Assembly (NCBI GenBank): GCA_937959095.1
Contig: CALGLY010000080.1
Location: forward strand, 1 to 20,703
Origin: an uncultured Saprospiraceae bacterium
Lineage (GTDB): Bacteria > Bacteroidota > Bacteroidia > Chitinophagales > Saprospiraceae
Direction of reading: 5' to 3'
Length of the DNA: 20,703 bases
The notes beneath the pieces are model-generated. The model saw only the letters and a list, made by a program, of their open reading frames with translations, was not told the DNA's origin and ran no database searches. Positions 4,318-16,939 of this stretch are shown here, in pieces. The position numbers were made by a program, and so were the translations under genes. Every line of letters begins with the position of its first letter. Within the stretch, counting starts at the first letter, position 1.

Positions 4318-4515
4318 GGTATAAAATATATTTAGTTCTTTGATAAATTCCCGTGACCAAAGAACGAGGTGTTTTTTACAAGTCCAAATAAAGCATATTT
4401 ACGTAGGAGAAGCTACTTGGTTCGACGATTTCTTGTTTTAGTTCGACTAATCGCTAAATCATACAATTTCCATTCGTTTTTATACGTCTTAAAGAACATA
4501 CAAAACTTCAACATT

Positions 4516-4947
4516 ATGAATCACCTGACAGTTTTCTCCGCGTTCTTTTTCCTTCTCTTTTCTGCCTGTACAAGCGACGAAACGGCTGAGCCTATTCCCA
4601 ATTGTGAGCAAAAGGTAGTGCTAGATGGCGATCTATTCCAAACCGCCCCTAGTGATCGCGCGGTTATCATTAGTGCGAGTATTGGGGAGGAATGCCTTGA
4701 AATAGAATTTTCGGCATCGGGCTGCGATGGAAATAGTTGGACAGTAAGTTTGATAGACTCCGAAGCTATCGCCGAATCACTTCCCATGCAGCGCAGTCTG
4801 CGGCTATCACTAGAGAATCTAGAGGTCTGTACCGCTATAATAACACAGAAAATTTCCTTCGATATAAATGCACTACAAGTAGAAGGACACGATGAATTAA
4901 TTTTAAACTTGAAGGATTGGGCTGATCCTATTCGGTATGAGTATTAG
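4516..4947 (+). CDS. Small predicted lipoprotein
   Basis: A 143-residue protein starting MNHLTVFSAFFFLLFSACTSDE. The hydrophobic stretch followed by FSAC (Cys18) and then Ser/Asp/Glu is a lipoprotein signal, so the mature protein is probably lipid-anchored with its N-terminus at Cys18. The open frame extends upstream to 4369, but those residues are basic and lie before the signal peptide, so ATG 4516 is the sensible start. The mature part is mostly beta-rich and contains four more cysteines that could form disulfides. There is no recognisable domain. It stands alone on the plus strand, divergent from the coiled-coil gene. Confidence 0.75.
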   Translation: MNHLTVFSAFFFLLFSACTSDETAEPIPNCEQKVVLDGDLFQTAPSDRAVIISASIGEECLEIEFSASGCDGNSWTVSLIDSEAIAESLPMQRSLRLSLENLEVCTAIITQKISFDINALQVEGHDELILNLKDWADPIRYEY

Positions 4948-9392: not shown

Positions 9393-12356
9393 ATGAACAC
9401 CACCAACACTATTACAAATCAGCAAGAACGCAAAGAAGCGATAGCGGCACGATTGGATTTCGTGTTGGAAAGTAGTCATACTTCTACTCCAAAAAGTAAG
9501 TATACCCTTCCATCTACAGGGAAACAGATTGATTTTGCAAAACAAAAAAATTCTTGGAAATTAGGACGTTTAATCTGGCGAATAGGCGAATTACGCATTA
9601 CAGCATGTCGTGATAAACTATTAAATACTAAGCCGCTTCTAGAAACAGAACTAGAGAAGTACAGCTTCATATGGACACTAGGAAGAATAGGAAAGACAGA
9701 AGATGCAGCCGTAGTGAAAGAGGTCTTAAATGCTAATCTCGAATCCGATACTTTAATAGCTGTTTGCTTTCAAAGTCTACTATTATTAGATGTAGAGACA
9801 GACATTAAAAAAGGATTGCTAAAAGATATTCCCGAAAAAGTAGTAAATAGTATAAAAAATAACCTTTTTGATGATTTGCTATCTACCTTACAAGTCGCTT
9901 TAACGCCTGATAAGTGCAATAATTGGCTCTATTGGTTATACCTCTTGCATTGGGAAACGCCAAAAGTAAAAGCAGCTTTGCAAAGCCTATTAAGCGAACT
10001 TCCATTAAAAGGCAATTACTTCAAGCCATTCCGAAAAATATTGAAAGCCGCCGAGCATTTTGAAGATATGGAAACCCTCGCTTTGCTCTACTGGAAAATA
10101 CAACATAGCGATGCCTACTGCAATGTACTGTTGCGCGGCGATTGGGAGCGCAAAGCAGATGGAACGTGGTATCAAAAGGACGTTCAAAAATTTGCTGTCA
10201 CTCATGGAAATAGCTACCAAAGTGTACCACTAAAAGAAGTCTTAAAAGCAGCTAGTAGCGACTTTGGATTTACTCTAAAAAGCAAAAAATATTTCAAGAC
10301 TAGATTTCTACGAATTTTATTTCGGAGCGGCGACGCGGACAGTCCCTTATTTACAACACTCGCAACAGCCTATCTTTTGCAAGTGAAGGACGAACAGGCA
10401 AAAGCCGCTTATTCCGACCGTCGATACACCTATGTGCATAACGACACCACAAATCGTTGGGAAAGTCGTGTACAGCAATTATACTATCCAATACATAGCG
10501 ATAAAGTGGCAATGTATCGTCTGCTCTACACCAATTCGGAGCAATATTTAATTTCTTCTGCTAGTGTTCGTATTCTGAAAGATAAGAAGGCTACAGCAGG
10601 CAGAACGGAACTATTTCCTGAGCTTTGGAATGCTGCGCCACGTGCTATCATTCGCCTATTGGCAGGAAGTAAAGCAGTTTTAATACAAGATTTCGCAGCC
10701 ACTGTATTTGAAGATAATCCAAATTTTGTAGATACAATCCAATCAGAAGATGTAATCCAGATGTTGGCGCGTCCTTATCTGAAAACACAGCAAATTGCGA
10801 TAGTTGCAATTCGTAAAAACTACGCGCAATTCGAGCAAGAAAAAGCAGTCTTTTTAGCTTTGCTAGATTGCGGAATCGTGGAAGGACAACAACTCGCTAT
10901 CAACTGGCTGAACACGAGAAAAAAAACGCTTTTAGAAGACCTAGAATTCATTACACATTTAATAATACACCCACAGTCAAATGCAAACAAGTGGATAGCT
11001 TCGGCTATCAATACACCTGATTTTGCAGCACCTCAAAAGCCAAAACTTTTACAACATTTGTTACAGTTTATACAAGTCGACTCATCGGCTGAACATATCC
11101 AGAACGTGCTTGCATTCATTGAAACGCATCTTAAGTCGCAAGCACAGCAAGTGAGCGAGCAAGAGTTGAGGCAATTAGTGGGACATCCATCCCCTGTACT
11201 CAATTTATTTGCTGCAAAATTAATGCAGCAACATAAAAAGAGTATAACTAAATTGCCTTCTGAACTCTTGCTGCAGCTCATGGAATCGGAGCATCCTGAA
11301 GTCCGTGCGGCAGGTATCGAACTCTTTGGTCAGTTGCCCGAAGAAGAACTATATCGCCAACAAGTGGTGGTTTCTAATTGCTGTGTGTCGCCTATCGAAG
11401 AGGTGCGCCAAGCAATTAAACCAACAGCCTTAAAGTTGAGCCAAAAATATCCCGATTTTGGCTTGGATTTGAGTGAAATTTTGAGCGATTTTCTATTGAT
11501 GCGTGGTAAGGCGAATGACGTACACACCTCCATTGCGGAGCTATTGGCTACTCCTGAAATGAAGGCATTCATCGTACAGTTTCCGACTACTAAAATGTGG
11601 CGATTGCTACGCTCCAAGAAATATCCTACACAGCAAGTCGGCTTTGCGATACTAGCCGCTACCACCGATTCAACCAAACTCGATATGGAAGACATCGTAG
11701 CACTTGGCAAGCACGAATTGAAAGCAGTGCGTGTGTGGGCGCAAGAGGCTATCCAACAGCAAGCAACTCGTGCGGTGTATGAAGCCGACAAAACGCTTCG
11801 CTTGCTCGAAACCGATTGGGAAGACAGCCGCCATTTTATGATGCAATTCGCAACGACCGAATTCAAAGCCCGCGATTGGACACCCGAACTTTTAGTAAGT
11901 CTCTGCGATAGTACCCGCGATGAAGTGCAGGCTTTCGGCTTGCAGCAAATACAGACTTATTTCAAGGAAGAAAATGCAATCCAGTTCCTAAATCAATTGA
12001 GTCAACATCCTGCGGCGCGCGTACAACTGATGGCGACAGTTTGGCTAGAAGAACACGCTTCTAATAATTTAGAACAGCTACGAAAACTAAGCCCTTTTTT
12101 CTTGACTATTCTTTCGCAAATCAACAAGAGTAGAAGCGCGAAAAAATATGTCTACGCCTTCCTCGAAGAAGAAGCTTTGCGTGCACCTGAATTTGCGGAG
12201 GTCATCATCCCTATGCTAGAGCGTTTGGTGCTAACGGTAGCGGTAGGCGATAGAGCGAATTGTATTCTATTGCTGAATAAAGTACGGCGCAAATATCCGC
12301 ATTTAACAATGCGATTGCAGGCTAATAAATTAGAAGTTACTAAGTGTGAGACTTGA
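9393..12356 (+). CDS. Large HEAT/ARM-like repeat protein, retron-associated
   Basis: A 987-residue, almost wholly helical protein with no signal peptide, membrane segment or recognisable catalytic motif. Helical-repeat character is clear in several places, for example YSFIWTLGRIGKTEDAAVVK (about 88-107) and HPEVRAAGIELFGQLPEEEL (about 633-652), which has the HEAT pattern of a hydrophobic helix pair with a turn. Such solenoids usually bind proteins or nucleic acids. It begins the plus-strand cassette: the SWIM protein follows after 61 bp and the retron RNAs and RT after that. I recall a retron class with an ARM/HEAT-repeat partner (DUF6493-type) beside a WHSWIM protein, and this gene fits that slot; family membership was not tested. 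A role as effector or scaffold is inference. Confidence 0.75.
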   Translation: MNTTNTITNQQERKEAIAARLDFVLESSHTSTPKSKYTLPSTGKQIDFAKQKNSWKLGRLIWRIGELRITACRDKLLNTKPLLETELEKYSFIWTLGRIGKTEDAAVVKEVLNANLESDTLIAVCFQSLLLLDVETDIKKGLLKDIPEKVVNSIKNNLFDDLLSTLQVALTPDKCNNWLYWLYLLHWETPKVKAALQSLLSELPLKGNYFKPFRKILKAAEHFEDMETLALLYWKIQHSDAYCNVLLRGDWERKADGTWYQKDVQKFAVTHGNSYQSVPLKEVLKAASSDFGFTLKSKKYFKTRFLRILFRSGDADSPLFTTLATAYLLQVKDEQAKAAYSDRRYTYVHNDTTNRWESRVQQLYYPIHSDKVAMYRLLYTNSEQYLISSASVRILKDKKATAGRTELFPELWNAAPRAIIRLLAGSKAVLIQDFAATVFEDNPNFVDTIQSEDVIQMLARPYLKTQQIAIVAIRKNYAQFEQEKAVFLALLDCGIVEGQQLAINWLNTRKKTLLEDLEFITHLIIHPQSNANKWIASAINTPDFAAPQKPKLLQHLLQFIQVDSSAEHIQNVLAFIETHLKSQAQQVSEQELRQLVGHPSPVLNLFAAKLMQQHKKSITKLPSELLLQLMESEHPEVRAAGIELFGQLPEEELYRQQVVVSNCCVSPIEEVRQAIKPTALKLSQKYPDFGLDLSEILSDFLLMRGKANDVHTSIAELLATPEMKAFIVQFPTTKMWRLLRSKKYPTQQVGFAILAATTDSTKLDMEDIVALGKHELKAVRVWAQEAIQQQATRAVYEADKTLRLLETDWEDSRHFMMQFATTEFKARDWTPELLVSLCDSTRDEVQAFGLQQIQTYFKEENAIQFLNQLSQHPAARVQLMATVWLEEHASNNLEQLRKLSPFFLTILSQINKSRSAKKYVYAFLEEEALRAPEFAEVIIPMLERLVLTVAVGDRANCILLLNKVRRKYPHLTMRLQANKLEVTKCET

Positions 12357-12417: not shown

Positions 12418-14058
12418 ATGATTTTCAACTATAAATATGGCGGTCAATCAGGCATCGTCAATACAGCCAATCGTGTCGGTATTTCTTTCGCGCCCGACCT
12501 GCTTCGAGAACCTACTTTTTTTGTAGGCAATTTGAATCAAAAAATCCCTTTTCGGGAAGCGATGTCGGCTTTACATTCGGTGGTGGTTTCGGACTTGCGT
12601 TTTCAGCCAAAAGATAAAACCGAATATAAAGAATGGGCAAAGCAACAGGAAGAAATCTGGTTGGCGGAATACATGGCGCAGCAGCCTGACTTAAAGGAAC
12701 GGATTGGCGGAATGAAGACGGAATTGAATACGTTGCGCGCACATAAGCAGAAAATCTTACAGCCTTTTAATAAAGCAAAATGGGCATTTTTCAAATATAT
12801 CCGTAAGCGTGATTATGATGCTTGGTTTGTGCTAGATCCTGTGATTACGGTGCATCCAGATGAATTATTTTTTGAATGTTTCAGTCAAGATGAATCGACT
12901 TATGCGCGCCTAGCTTGCGACTATAATGTATTCGATAAAATAAACACCTTCGAGTGCGGCACGACCAATATTGATTACTCTTCGGCACTCTATAATGAAT
13001 TTCAAAAAATCAGAACCTACAAAGACACTCAGTTTAAAATTGACCCTTCGGGCTTTGAAGTACAAACCGAAGGCGAGGACGATTACAAAGAGGAAAAAAT
13101 AGATTTACCCGATACGTGGGTACGCGGCTTTTTGCAAGTTAGTACGGCGATGACTTTGCCTGCGGTTTCCTTTGAGTTGCATCCGATGGATTTGTGGAAT
13201 GTCTTGTTTTTGCTTCGCAGAAATAAAGCACAAAGCAGCCCGCGCTATATGCAATACATCCTGAAGCCAGGCGAACCAATTCGCATTCGCTTCAAGCCCT
13301 GGGATAAAGAAATCACTTGTGTGCGATCCATCTATCAGGGTGCAGAGGCGCGTGAAATTAAGGTTTGGGGTCGTCGCCGTTTGCTGACACTAGAGCGTCT
13401 AATGCCAATAGCGCAAAGCGTGAAAGTACATTTACTAGGCGATGGTTTGCCTTCTTTTTATATCGTCGGCATGGATGATTTGCACTTCACCCTCGGACTT
13501 TCGGGCTGGACAAGCAACGATTGGTCACGTACAGGACAATTCAACCTAATGGGCAGTATGCAGCAAGTAGATAGCACGAGCAAAGGGGCTATTTATCAAG
13601 CCTTGCGCCAAAGTTGGTCGCTTACTACAGATGAATTGTCGAAAACAACAGGCTTTGATAAAGCTACCGTACATACTGCCATGACTGCTCACGCACAGGA
13701 AGGCAATGCGATTTTTGACTTAACAAAGAATTGCTATCGCGCTCGCGAATTGAGTAAAGATGGCATTCCAGTAGAAAAGCTGCGCTATAGCTCGCCGCTA
13801 GAGGAACAAGCCCACGCTTGGCAACAAGCGGGTGCGGTGCGGATCTTATCGAGAGGCGAAAATAAAGAGGTGCGATTGCTAAAAGGAGAGGTGCGTGTCG
13901 ATGACACTACTTTCCAAAGCGAACTGACGATTAATGAAGACCAAAAACTTGTGCAAGCAACCTGTAGCTGTACCGATTTTAAAGAAAATGGTTTGCGAAA
14001 AGGACCTTGCGCGCACTTGTTGGCAGTACGAATACAATCAGAATTTTCGGGATTGTAG
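12418..14058 (+). CDS. WHSWIM-type protein: winged helix plus SWIM zinc finger, retron-associated
   Basis: A 546-residue cytoplasmic protein. The first ~370 residues show no motif I recognise. Residues about 391-440 (GAIYQALRQSWSLTTDELSK..., then KATVHTAMTAHAQEGNAIFD) look like a winged helix-turn-helix. The C-terminus has a SWIM zinc finger, CSC at 516-518 and CAH at 531-533 (CxC...CxH), a fold that binds DNA or proteins. It lies 61 bp after the HEAT gene on the same strand, so the two are probably one operon, and it ends where the ncRNA array region begins. The last codons (QSEFSGL and the stop) are embedded in palindromic repeat H1, suggesting that the repeat replaced the original 3' end. 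I recall WHSWIM proteins as partners of one retron class; DNA binding and any effector role are inferred. Confidence 0.82.
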   Translation: MIFNYKYGGQSGIVNTANRVGISFAPDLLREPTFFVGNLNQKIPFREAMSALHSVVVSDLRFQPKDKTEYKEWAKQQEEIWLAEYMAQQPDLKERIGGMKTELNTLRAHKQKILQPFNKAKWAFFKYIRKRDYDAWFVLDPVITVHPDELFFECFSQDESTYARLACDYNVFDKINTFECGTTNIDYSSALYNEFQKIRTYKDTQFKIDPSGFEVQTEGEDDYKEEKIDLPDTWVRGFLQVSTAMTLPAVSFELHPMDLWNVLFLLRRNKAQSSPRYMQYILKPGEPIRIRFKPWDKEITCVRSIYQGAEAREIKVWGRRRLLTLERLMPIAQSVKVHLLGDGLPSFYIVGMDDLHFTLGLSGWTSNDWSRTGQFNLMGSMQQVDSTSKGAIYQALRQSWSLTTDELSKTTGFDKATVHTAMTAHAQEGNAIFDLTKNCYRARELSKDGIPVEKLRYSSPLEEQAHAWQQAGAVRILSRGENKEVRLLKGEVRVDDTTFQSELTINEDQKLVQATCSCTDFKENGLRKGPCAHLLAVRIQSEFSGL

Positions 14059-14133
14059 AATTAGCAGAATTATAATTAGTAGACGTCTTTGACGTCAATT
14101 TTGCTAATTCTGTAATCCTGAAAACCCTGATTC
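14036..14133. repeat. Palindromic repeat H1, overlapping the SWIM stop codon
   Basis: One of three related ~100-bp imperfect palindromes. The left arm (AATCAGAATTTTCGGGATT, then AGAATTAGCA) pairs with the right arm (TGCTAATTCT, then AATCCTGAAA and CCTGATT). The tip is AT-rich with GACGTC words. The left arm begins inside the SWIM coding sequence and supplies its last residues and stop codon. It may also end the upstream transcript. Confidence 0.75.
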
Positions 14134-14137
14134 AGAT

Positions 14138-14369
14138 AAAAAGGGAAGTCAATCCATCAAAGATCTTGCTTTTGGAATGATGAAAGCGTCATTCGAGTTT
14201 TTTACTTATCCATTCGCCATCACAGCTATCGTATGGATGCACTTCGTCACTATAATACAGTTCTTTTCGGTGCTACCTCGTAGAGGCAAAAGAACGTATT
14301 ATAGTTGAAGTGCGGAGTTGATAACTTTGATTCTTGGTTTGTCGAAGATTGGATTGGTTTTCTCTTTTT
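14138..14369 (+). ncRNA. Retron-like msr-msd RNA, unit C1
   Basis: a1 (14138-14167) pairs with a2 (14345-14369): AAAAAG with CTTTTT, CAATCC with GGATTG, ATCTT with AAGAT. G14168, directly after a1 in the conserved CTTGC, is the candidate branching guanosine. The msr hairpin is GAATGATG (14175-14182), loop AAAG, CGTCATTC (14187-14194). A second stem is ATCCAT (14208-14213) with ATGGAT (14233-14238). The msd hairpin is GCACTTC/GAAGTGC (14239-14245, 14307-14313), then ACTATAATAC/GTATTATAGT, then GTTCTTTT/AAAAGAAC, with tip CCTC-GTA-GAGG (14276-14286). The layout matches retron ncRNAs; processing was not observed. Confidence 0.82.
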
Positions 14370-14376
14370 CTTATTT

Positions 14377-14476
14377 GAATCAGGATTTTCAGGATTACAG
14401 AATTGGCAGAATTATAATATCAGAGGCATCTAAGATGCCAATTCTGAAAATTCTACAATCCCAAAAATCCTGATTC
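14377..14476. repeat. Palindromic repeat H2 between C1 and C2
   Basis: The left arm (GAATCAGGATTTTCAGGATT, then AGAATTGGCA) pairs with the right arm (TGCCAATTCT, then AATC and AATCCTGATTC). The tip is GGCATC-TAA-GATGCC. It is followed by CAACTATAAACGTT, closely matching the sequence after H3. It starts 7 nt after the a2 of C1. Confidence 0.78.
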
Positions 14477-14500
14477 AACTATAAACGTTCTTTTACATAC

Positions 14501-14847
14501 GGGAAACTGACACATCAAAGATCTTGCTTTTGGAATGATGAGTAGTTCAAAAAATCAATTCGACATTTCATAAACTATACGAAAATGGAGCGACAATTAA
14601 GGAGCGACATTTCGTATCGCTTTGTGAAATCTAAGGAGGATTGATTTTTGAACAAATAATACATAGCGTCATTCGAGTTTTTTACTTATCCATTCGTCAC
14701 TAGACGCATCGTGTGGTTGTACTTCTTAAACTAGTAGTACACTTTGCGGTGAGTTTGCGGAGCAAACAAAATGTACTACTAGTTTGAAGTACGGAGTTGA
14801 TTCGCCTAGTGCCTTGGTTGTCGAAGATGGTGTCGGTTTCTCTTTTT
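14501..14847 (+). ncRNA. Retron-like msr-msd RNA, unit C2 (with an insertion in the msr loop)
   Basis: a1 (GGGAAACTGACAC, 14501-14513, plus ATCTT 14521-14525) pairs with a2 (AAGATGGTGTCGGTTTCTC, from 14824) with only G-U changes and a bulge. The candidate branch guanosine is G14526. The msr stem GAATGATG (14533-14540) / CGTCATTC (14667-14674) is intact, but its loop holds a ~109-bp palindromic insertion. The msd hairpin is GTACTTC/GAAGTAC (14719-14725, 14786-14792), a 14-bp stem AAACTAGTAGTACA/TGTACTACTAGTTT, and tip GTTTGC-GGA-GCAAAC (14753-14767). The central stem shares no sequence with C1. Confidence 0.82.
14545..14653. mobile_element. MITE-like palindromic insertion in the C2 msr loop
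   Basis: Termini GTTCAAAAAATCAA (14545-14558) and TTGATTTTTGAAC (14641-14653) are inverted repeats differing by one A. Nested pairs inside are ATTTCA/TGAAAT and ATACGAAA/TTTCGTAT, so the whole ~109 bp folds into one long hairpin. C1, C3 and C4 have only a 4-nt loop here, so this is an insertion. No transposase is encoded, and no clear target duplication is visible. Confidence 0.7.
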
Positions 14848-14945
14848 AATCAGGATTTTCAGAATTATAGAATCAGCAGAATTCTAATATAGGAGGCATC
14901 TAAGATGCCAATTCTGAAAATCCTGTAATCCTGAAAATCCTGATT
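14848..14945. repeat. Palindromic repeat H3 between C2 and C3
   Basis: The left arm AATCAGGATTTTCAGAATT pairs with the right arm GTAATCCTGAAAATCCTGATT (partly), and GGCATC-TAA-GATGCC forms the tip, as in H2. It abuts the end of the C2 a2 arm and is followed by CAACTATAAATGTT, as after H2. Confidence 0.78.
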
Positions 14946-14963
14946 CAACTATAAATGTTTTTT

Positions 14964-15194
14964 CTACAATGGATTTCCTTATGAATGGTTCTTGCTTTTG
15001 GGATGATGGTAGCGTCATTCAAGTTATTTACTAACACATAGTTCCCCATTGCTATCGGGTGGATAGCGATGCTTTGAATATAAATTTAATTCGGTTGATC
15101 TTCGTAGAAGACATTAGAATTTATATTCAATATCGCTGGAGTTGATAGCTATGGTTCTTGGATAGTCGAAGAGATTCATGTTTTCCGATTGTAG
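14964..15194 (+). ncRNA. Retron-like msr-msd RNA, unit C3
   Basis: The most divergent unit. a1 contains CTACAAT (14964-14970) and ATGAAT (14981-14986), which pair with ATTGTAG (15188-15194) and ATTCAT (15174-15179). TTCTT before G14994 pairs with AAGAG. The msr hairpin is GGATGATG (15001-15008), loop GTAG, CGTCATTC (15013-15020); the G-T pair replaces A-T of the others. The msd hairpin is AGCGAT/ATCGCT (15065-15070, 15132-15137), TTGAATATAAATT/AATTTATATTCAA (15074-15086, 15118-15130), and tip TCTTC-GTA-GAAGA (15099-15111). Even the outer clamp has changed on both sides, so pairing and not sequence is kept. Confidence 0.8.
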
Positions 15195-15200
15195 TATACT

Positions 15201-15423
15201 GGGAAAATTGGGCAGCTAAAGAGCTTGCTTTAGGAATGATGTTAGCGTCATTCAAGTTACTTACTTATCCATTCTCCACTGGTCTCATCGCGTGGATGCA
15301 CTTCTGTACGGGTATAGTGCATTTTGCGGTGGGTTTGCGTAGCAAACAAATTGCACTATACCCGTGAAGTGCGGAGTAGATGCGCCCAGTACTTGGTTTG
15401 TCGAAGTTGCTGCCCGTTTTCCC
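15201..15423 (+). ncRNA. Retron-like msr-msd RNA, unit C4 (next to the RT)
   Basis: a1 GGGAAAATTGGGCAGC (15201-15216) pairs with a2 GCTGCCCGTTTTCCC (15409-15423), 14 pairs around one small bulge; GCTT before G15227 pairs with AAGT. The msr hairpin is GAATGATG (15234-15241), loop TTAG, CGTCATTC (15246-15253). The msd hairpin is GCACTTC/GAAGTGC (15298-15304, 15366-15372), ACGGGTATAGTGCA/TGCACTATACCCGT (15308-15321, 15352-15365), and tip GTTTGC-GTA-GCAAAC (15333-15347). It ends 31 nt before the RT start codon, the position of a normal retron ncRNA. Confidence 0.85.
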
Positions 15424-15454: not shown

Positions 15455-16939
15455 ATGAACACCACACCTATCAACGAGCAAGAAATTCCAAAGCGAAGTC
15501 GTAAGGAATTGATGAAAATCATTCAGGAAACTTCCCGTTCGCAATTCATTTTGGAGGAGATGCAACGCTATGGTTTTTGGCCCGATGAGGAAGGCGAACC
15601 GACTTTGCAAGAGGAACTCATTCGGAAAGAAACGAGCTTGCAAAAAGACCTGAACACCCTCTTGCGCGAGCAACGCAAACAAGACAATGCCAAGGTCATG
15701 ATGCGCCGTATGCGAAAAGAACGCATGAAAGCAGCAAAAGCACGACGCGCAGAAACCAAAGCCAAACGCGAAGCCGATAAAAAAGCGCGCGCCGAAGCTT
15801 GGAAAGTCCGTCAAGCAACAGATATTACCTACTTGGGTGAGGAAGTATCTTATGGGTTAAAAAATAAAGAAACCGATATTGAAAAATTGGAAGCGAAAGG
15901 CTTACCAATTTACGAAAATATAGAAAACCTAGCTGCCGCGATGAGCCTAAGCGTAGGGAAGTTGCGTTGGTTGGTATTCAATAAGAAAGTAGCAACTACG
16001 AGTCATTACAAACGCTTTGAAATTCCAAAAAATAAGGGGAGTGTACGCGTCATTTCTGCGCCTATGTATTTGTTGAAAAACGCACAACATTGGTTGCTCG
16101 AAAATATTCTCTACAAACATGCCATCGAGGAAGAAGCGCATGGTTTTGTGCCACAAAAATCGATTCTTTCTAATGCCAAAATCCATGTAGGACAGACTTT
16201 GGTGATTAATTTAGATATGAAAGATTTCTTCCCAACGATTAGCTATCCGCGCATCAAAGGAATGTTTTGCAAAATGGGCTATTCCGAACAAATGGCGACC
16301 GTTTTCGCGCTGCTTTGCTCCGAACCCGAAAGTGATGTCGTGGAAATAGATGGCACGACTTATTATGTACAAACAGGTGAACGCTACTTACCACAAGGCG
16401 CACCTACGAGTCCTGCTATCACGAACATTATCTGCCGCCGCTTGGATAGACGCATGGCGGGTGTGGCTGCAAAAATCGGATTTCGATATAGCCGCTATGC
16501 CGATGATTTGACTTTTTCGGCTATGGAATCCGAAGGGCAAGATAAGATTGGGGGATTGCTGTGGCAAGTGAAACAAATCGTACAAGATGAAGGCTTCCGC
16601 TTGCACCCTGATAAGTTGCAAATTATGCGAAAAGGCGCGCGGCGCGAAGTGACAGGCATCGTGGTCAATGAAAAACCAAATATCAGTCGCCGAAAATTGA
16701 AAGAATTTCGGGCGGTCTTGTATAAAATAGAACAAAACGGTCCAGCAGGGAGAACTTGGGGGAAAGGCAAAAATTTATTTTTGTCTTTACAGAGTTTTGC
16801 AGCTTATGTAGCGATGGTCAATCCTGAAAAAGGGAAACCTTTACTCCAACGTGTACGAGCAATTCGCAAGAAACATGACTCCAATTTTTCGACTTCCGTA
16901 TGGAAAGGTTTTTGGACCCGTGTTTTTGGGAAGGCATGA
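15455..16939 (+). CDS. Retron-type reverse transcriptase
   Basis: A 494-residue RT that should use a guanosine 2'-OH of the ncRNA as primer and copy the msd into cDNA. Retron hallmarks are present: NAKIH (240-244, the NAxxH motif), catalytic LDMKDFF (253-259), LPQGAPTSPAITN (312-324), the YADD box (348-351, preceded by RYSR) and VTG (399-401), followed by the C-terminal region linked in retron RTs to specific ncRNA recognition. The core starts near residue 150. The first ~140 residues are an unusually long, highly charged helical extension with a basic stretch (about 71-120, many Arg/Lys/Ala), longer than in typical 300-400-residue retron RTs; it may bind RNA. It follows unit C4 by 31 nt and ends before a strong terminator. 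All catalytic aspartates (D254, D350, D351) are present, so it is probably active. Confidence 0.95.
   Translation: MNTTPINEQEIPKRSRKELMKIIQETSRSQFILEEMQRYGFWPDEEGEPTLQEELIRKETSLQKDLNTLLREQRKQDNAKVMMRRMRKERMKAAKARRAETKAKREADKKARAEAWKVRQATDITYLGEEVSYGLKNKETDIEKLEAKGLPIYENIENLAAAMSLSVGKLRWLVFNKKVATTSHYKRFEIPKNKGSVRVISAPMYLLKNAQHWLLENILYKHAIEEEAHGFVPQKSILSNAKIHVGQTLVINLDMKDFFPTISYPRIKGMFCKMGYSEQMATVFALLCSEPESDVVEIDGTTYYVQTGERYLPQGAPTSPAITNIICRRLDRRMAGVAAKIGFRYSRYADDLTFSAMESEGQDKIGGLLWQVKQIVQDEGFRLHPDKLQIMRKGARREVTGIVVNEKPNISRRKLKEFRAVLYKIEQNGPAGRTWGKGKNLFLSLQSFAAYVAMVNPEKGKPLLQRVRAIRKKHDSNFSTSVWKGFWTRVFGKA

Follow-up and report, generated by a model that had tools for sequence, protein, structure and literature searches.

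The canonical retron combines a1/a2 sequences, a branch G, and an msr followed by an msd with a reverse transcriptase (RT) that carries NAxxH and VTG motifs, and the msDNA that retrons make has a 2'-5' branch. The common view of these elements is one RT, one RNA, and one msDNA. Retrons are sorted into types, type XIII among them, under a naming credited to Mestre et al. 2020, and we found no study of type XIII function or anti-phage activity among the literature matches listed. In the parts available of a 2019 review, msr and msd are described as lying inside a single transcriptional cassette in all validated retrons (PMC6868368). Here, we analyzed a 20,703-nt stretch of DNA from an uncultured Saprospiraceae bacterium (the window), in which a single retron RT gene is preceded by four candidate msr-msd units. 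A natural multi-RNA retron departs from the common view, and the literature matches listed, mostly at abstract level and with little subscription literature among them, contained no description of a natural array with several msr-msd units.

RESULTS

The locus is a predicted type XIII retron

The locus contains three protein-coding genes:

9393..12356, + strand: WGR/HEAT-repeat protein of type XIII retrons, 987 aa (PADLOC WGR_XIII, E 1.3e-221, 737 bits; Pfam HEAT_2)
12418..14058, + strand: SWIM zinc-finger protein of type XIII retrons, 546 aa (PADLOC SWIM_XIII, E 8.2e-224, 742 bits; Pfam SWIM)
15455..16939, + strand: retron reverse transcriptase, type XIII, 494 aa (PADLOC RT_XIII, E 3.4e-184; RVT_1), with NAxxH at residues 240-244, YADD at 348-351, and VTG at 399-401

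NAxxH, YxDD, and VTG are the names of the retron-RT motifs. Residues N240, A241, H244, Y348, D350, D351, and V399-T400-G401 were invariant in an alignment of six sequences (A1), and these motifs, together with the matches to PADLOC retron RT models, mark the protein as a retron RT. Its type was clear from the scores, 611 bits for RT_XIII versus 305 bits for the runner-up PADLOC model. The RT belongs to the type XIII clade, the SWIM and WGR/HEAT accessory proteins are adjacent, and the RNA is of the type XIII family; judged by these features, the locus is a type XIII retron made up of a HEAT/WGR protein, a SWIM protein, and an RT. In the nearest relative with DNA that we examined, locus L098, RT identity was 72%; RT proteins nearer than this exist, at 85% and 84% identity. 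A scan of viral contigs gave no close relatives of the RT.

Four candidate msr-msd units lie between the SWIM and RT genes

The array spans positions 14138-15423, between the SWIM gene and the RT gene, and all of these elements are on the + strand. Its units are as follows:

14138..14369, + strand: unit C1; a1 14138-14154, CTTGC starting at 14165, candidate branch G 14168, msr hairpin 14175-14194, msd hairpin 14239-14313, GTCGAAG 14341-14347, a2 14347-14369
14501..14840, + strand: unit C2; a1 14501-14516, CTTGC starting at 14523, candidate branch G 14526, msr halves 14533-14540 and 14667-14674, msd hairpin 14718-14793, GTCGAAG 14820-14826, a2 14826-14840
14966..15192, + strand: unit C3; a1 14966-14988, CTTGC starting at 14991, candidate branch G 14994, msr hairpin 15001-15020, msd hairpin 15065-15137, GTCGAAG 15165-15171, a2 15171-15192
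15201..15423, + strand: unit C4; a1 15201-15216, CTTGC starting at 15224, candidate branch G 15227, msr hairpin 15234-15253, msd hairpin 15298-15372, GTCGAAG 15400-15406, a2 15407-15423

Each unit runs from a1 through CTTGC, the msr hairpin, the long msd hairpin, a GGAGTTGA-like box, and GTCGAAG to a2, an order common to all four. The initial annotation had described a set of landmarks common to all of them, including an 8-bp msr hairpin. We confirmed four units at the same place and on the same strand, but the 8-bp msr hairpin is uninterrupted only in C1, C3, and C4. By the unit boundaries adopted here, 8 nt separate C3 from C4.

An insert separates the two halves of the msr hairpin of C2; outside this insert, a1, a2, the msd hairpin, and the tail are all in place. 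Palindromic repeats also lie before and between the units:

14541..14666, + strand: C2 insert, 126 nt replacing the 4-nt msr loop; a hairpin (fold z -7.1 for 14535-14665)
14036..14132, strand not given: dispersed palindromic repeat of ~100 nt, AATCCTGAAAATCCTGATT-like, before C1
~14372-14481 (C1/C2 gap) and 14845-14951 (C2/C3 gap): related copies of this palindrome

Over most of its length, the C2 insert matches a sequence on another contig of the genome, C344, at 69% (E 7.6e-5), and the insert is perhaps a second mobile palindrome. For the palindromic repeat, 24 of the 30 matches listed were on other contigs of the genome, some of them clustered (contig C23).

The units match an RNA model built from relatives

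We built a covariance model, R1, from 26 aligned units of relatives, three of them from the close relative L098. Because the window was left out of the training set, the test of its units was non-circular. R1 matched C1 at 14159-14350 with the best score (E 6.8e-21, 85.9 bits), C4 at 15218-15409 (E 6.1e-20), C3 at 14985-15174 (E 1e-14), and C2 at 14640-14829 (E 1.2e-12), the last of these matches starting within the C2 insert. No further R1 units were found in the window (20.7 kb, both strands, E up to 1). Across the 26 units of the relatives, 96.3% of cells were paired and 13 of 21 pairs changed on both sides. The covariation score was 0.505 versus at most 0.142 in slid structures, and changes on both sides were seen in 99 cells, whereas shuffles gave 23.1 and slid structures no more than 11. 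One measure of covariation, further pair types, was not above shuffles (155 of 500 as high). When the msd hairpins of C1 to C4 were folded as DNA strands, the z scores were -4.8, -8.0, -6.3, and -8.8, and for each hairpin none of 200 shuffles folded as well; the input stretch for C1 was missing part of the stem base. A search of Rfam gave six miRNA-named matches, all far under the gathering scores, which we took as chance.

The dispersed palindrome between the units and the relative of the C2 insert elsewhere in the genome would fit another explanation, that the units are not retron RNAs and that a repeat family of recombination sites or palindromes came to lie before the RT by chance. Against this, C4 used as a query matched the array alone in the host genome (73.85% complete), the units match a model of the RNA found beside type XIII RTs, and the structure of that RNA covaries. 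We therefore regard a chance repeat family as extremely improbable.

Each unit is predicted to close with its own a1/a2 duplex

We then compared a1:a2 pairing within and between units. The energies of the own pairs were -29.8 kcal/mol for C1, -24.2 for C2, -16.6 for C3, and -28.1 for C4. In the 4x4 matrix of the window, the own pair was best in four of four rows and three of four columns, the exception being C3, whose a2 forms a stronger duplex with a1 from C4 than with a1 from its own unit (-20.2 versus -16.6). Over 17 arrays with 50 units, own pairs had a mean of -23.3 kcal/mol (n=50) versus -11.1 for swapped pairs (n=110), and the own pair was best in 44 of 50 rows. Self-pairing was weak in units 1 and 3 of L130 and in unit 1 of L021. 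By these predicted energies, most units in an array would close with their own a1/a2 duplex.

The initial annotation had proposed one retron RT with four msr-msd RNAs. The matches to the held-out model, the cognate a1/a2 pairing, and the arrays in relatives described below strongly support this proposal. With four units, covariation, a1:a2 pairing, and the model matches, the units have the features of retron RNAs, the branch G being a candidate by position only; the canonical arrangement of a single msr-msd per RT does not describe this locus.

If only the RT-proximal C4 were copied, C1 to C3 could be old duplicates that are being lost. C4 does adjoin the RT, with one of the two best R1 scores, and C2 carries an interruption and C3 has a lower score. 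However, C1, the unit farthest from the RT, has both the top R1 score and the strongest a1:a2 pair of its own, each of the four msd hairpins beats all 200 shuffles, and arrays with full-length units recur in relatives. Decayed and unpaired copies in relatives, an outcome that the initial annotation had raised, are not the picture either: L098 carries three full-length units (all three in the R1 training set). Relics of duplication thus seem very unlikely.

Arrays recur among relatives of the RT

When run on 2.3 Mb of control sequence, a pattern-and-fold detector gave 30 matches, and on 5.8 Mb of Markov sequence it gave 89. Because this detector matches control sequence, our census rests on the covariance model. 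One set of 88 loci combined 80 from named genomes, identified by the similarity of their RTs, with 8 from another search; 74 of the 88 had an R1 match at E up to 0.01, and 9 had at least two units. An order-level search gave 29 loci, 24 with a match and 7 with at least two units. In total, R1 matched at 98 of 117 loci (training loci included), with at least two units at 16 of the 98; a few genomes are counted twice in these numbers, Saprospira grandis (L034 and L107) being one of them. Training units match R1 by construction, and 9 of the 16 arrays contain at least one; the seven without are L018, L021, L079, L083, L099, L100, and L117. The 19 loci without a match include distant RTs (L008-L010) and the RT_XIII locus L007. 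L116 also had no match, yet a wider stretch of it, L137, shows one unit, and L130 and L131 had four units each once their flanks were lengthened. The flanks searched held one unit only at 82 of the 98 matching loci. Thus, an array is not needed for function.

Within the family to which the window belongs, 38 of 398 genomes had an R1 match, and 26 of these had at least two. Since genome G736 holds its two on separate contigs, the number of family genomes with at least two units on one contig, as counted by R1 matches and with the window's own genome included, is 25 of 38. By title or taxonomy, the hosts of arrays include Saprospiraceae, Acidobacteriota (L058, L081, and L083), and an Anaerolineales genome (L048); the array at L079 comes from a bin labelled Nealsonbacteria, a label that we doubt. 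Eight of the nine named array loci are titled MAG, L048 being the one that is not. When the presence of an array is mapped onto a tree of 87 RTs, nine changes are required, at least five of them forced on well-supported branches, and gain and loss are indistinguishable there. The tree omits 13 single-unit near copies (L020, L024, L031, L032, L050, L057, L076, L085, L089, L103, L107, L108, and L109), and its unit numbers include one truncated unit for L018 (4) and one pattern-only unit for L021 (3). On the sequences compared, arrays recur among type XIII retrons and are not confined to the RT of the window.

Some loci were arranged in other ways. An array of at least four units in genome G991 is apparently split by a contig end (L170 and L171): three matches follow a SWIM-sized frame on one contig, and one match plus a fragment precede the RT frame on the other. 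In G736, whose RT system sits on another contig, an R1 match on contig C92 (L169:4655-4892) has no RT frame in view and lies ~1 kb off the contig end, a possible orphan unit. In the family genome of L137, the unit (4348-4561) is between frames that we named by size as HEAT-sized and SWIM-sized, and not before the RT. In two cyanobacterial loci, the RNA does not adjoin the RT but lies ~4 kb (L064:5865-6057) and ~2 kb (L077:7800-7991) upstream. The Saprospira-type loci L034, L102, L104, L107, and L109 have a single unit with a far longer msd stem of 43-44 pairs.

Predicted msd cores vary on a constant scaffold

To compare the parts of units within arrays, we used mean identities over the 16 arrays. 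Identity was 0.86 for the msr, 0.88 for the tail, 0.78 for the loop, 0.72 for the basal msd stem, and 0.52 for the core, for which the baseline was 0.45 both in shuffled sequence and between arrays. In L081, the msr parts were 99-100% alike versus 41-60% for the cores. Five units were left out of this comparison (C2 of the window, units 1 and 3 of L130, unit 2 of L131, and unit 1 of L021). The hairpin starts of L132_4, L134_2, and L135_1 were misplaced in it, and therefore the values for these three are unreliable. As far as these alignments go, the centre of the msd stem varies among the units of an array and the msr and tail are kept.

These identities bear on an explanation by dosage, in which all units make msDNA, the cores are interchangeable, and the array raises the amount of msDNA. 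Cores and a1/a2 would then drift, because only pairing must be kept. The kept parts, msr and tail, are indeed those expected to touch the RT, and a1/a2 diverges as well. Dosage fits several msDNAs, not several sensors.

We compared cores between related loci in 13 pairs from eight sets, taking as the core 20 nt that include some conserved loop letters. No core was common to relatives in three comparisons, L134/L148, L151/L153, and L058/L081 (at most 0.70 alike), as dosage would have it. Elsewhere, however, 9 of the 30 best core pairs were 0.95-1.00 alike, which argues against interchangeable cores; four of these pairs had a1 and a2 that were each only 0.42-0.56 alike (0.64-0.96 in the other five). 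Near-identical cores at differing positions in sister genomes were found in three genera. L139 and L140 have a core that is 0.95 alike at different positions. Between L132 and L133, one core is 1.00 alike at positions 3 and 4, another 0.80 at positions 4 and 3, and a third 0.90 at the same position. Among four same-genus genomes (L141-L144), the position-1 scaffolds are 98-100% alike and carry two core families, each in two genomes, and the position-2 core of L142 equals the position-1 core of L144 on scaffolds just 0.87 alike. L163 and L164 have cores in common at the same positions. For the window and L129, only C4 has a clear counterpart core (0.81). In some sister genomes, then, near-identical predicted cores are present at other positions and on other scaffolds, and cores on exchanged scaffolds likewise speak against dosage.

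Core words also recurred between distant loci. Core 7-mers within three positions of each other were shared in 93 of 2082 locus pairs with RTs less than 50% identical, versus an expectation of 26.8 (sd 5.5) from Markov shuffles and 9.4 (sd 2.9) from column shuffles; ACTAGTA is one such word. This recurrence above shuffles is a further point against dosage, which we consider unlikely. The word ACYA was present in 44 of 82 msd arms versus 19.8 in Markov sequence. Per-column information in the cores was low, at most 0.3 bit, and therefore we claim no strict motif despite the ACYA enrichment. The core words share a loose common pattern, and this may reflect structure or a preference of the RT instead of targets. 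Hairpins longer than 86 nt were excluded from the 7-mer analysis and from the analyses of arms, which kept 110 of 130 arms for ACYA and palindromes and 95 of 130 for per-column information; three units without a recognisable box were left out of the stem-arm analyses.

Phage inhibitors of retrons exist. Diverse cores could thus be a means of escape, hindering any one phage inhibitor of the msDNA or its RNA. Such escape predicts diverse cores on constant scaffolds and exchange between species as well, but the same core words between distant RTs fit fixed targets better than diversification. We judge this explanation to be quite unlikely.

A reading of the stems as restriction sites found no support: 6-bp palindromes were present in 26 of 82 arms versus 27.2 in shuffled and 33.5 in Markov sequence. 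A small sample of three msd-stem strings (from L018, from L034, and from the C1 arm) had 0 exact matches each in viral contigs. On these strings, a phage origin of the cores is without support.

DISCUSSION

A single RT probably works with the constant msr scaffold in more than one unit, and msDNAs with different double-stranded cores would then coexist. The RT would recognise the constant scaffold, more than one unit could serve it, and the units would then yield msDNAs that differ in the core of the stem.

In the retrons that have been studied, msDNA is a sensor; several cores would therefore supply one effector pair with several sensors. The parts available of one report describe Retron-Asa1 and -Squ1 as triggered by a phage adenine methyltransferase through a GATC motif, which in Retron-Asa1 lies in the reverse-transcribed part (PMC12548924). 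In the portion available of a commentary, the stem-loop of Ec86 is modified by a phage methyltransferase, the msDNA of Ec83 is degraded, and that of Eco8 is bound by phage SSB (PMC13158370). By analogy, each core in an array could be targeted by a phage factor, be it a methyltransferase, a nuclease, or a DNA-binding protein. That each core presents a different phage target, with one effector pair held by several sensors, is to us a reasonable possibility, short of an even chance. We put forward more tentatively that arrays might be a modular bait repertoire, in which exchangeable msd cores of ~12-16 bp on constant scaffolds form an evolvable library of DNA sensors. The core set of a strain would then be reshuffled by recombination between scaffolds and species. 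Constant scaffolds with exchangeable cores make it directly testable what the msDNA sequence senses.

CRISPR and TIGR arrays, in the descriptions partly available, offer an analogy only, in that each unit joins a constant scaffold to a variable segment. However, the variable part in the window is the core of a self-paired hairpin, the three test strings had no viral match, and the acquisition of new segments has no support in the retron arrays analyzed here. Dispersed msDNA-like repeats, with partial copies and possible retrotransposition, are reported for Nannocystis exedens, to go by the titles of Lampson and Rice 1997 and Lampson et al. 2002. That organism, like the window, has more than one msDNA-related sequence per genome, but the same titles do not point to complete units arranged in tandem ahead of a single RT.

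The locus shares with canonical single-RNA retrons (Eco1/Ec86) the a1/a2 sequences, the branch G position, the order of msr and msd, and an RT with NAxxH and VTG, and differs in having one RT with four different predicted msr-msd units. With other type XIII retrons it has in common three proteins that all match their models at E <1e-180 (RT_XIII, SWIM_XIII, and WGR/HEAT-ARM_XIII) and an RNA family found also in the single-unit relatives; four units lie between SWIM and RT here, whereas 82 of 98 loci show one. Engineered retron arrays, in which several edits are reportedly made from arrayed templates (Gonzalez-Delgado et al. 2024, by title), were built for multi-site editing. The array in the window, in contrast, is natural, has an msr and a1/a2 of its own for each unit, and lies beside defence-type genes; it would be a natural layout for several different single-stranded DNAs from one RT.
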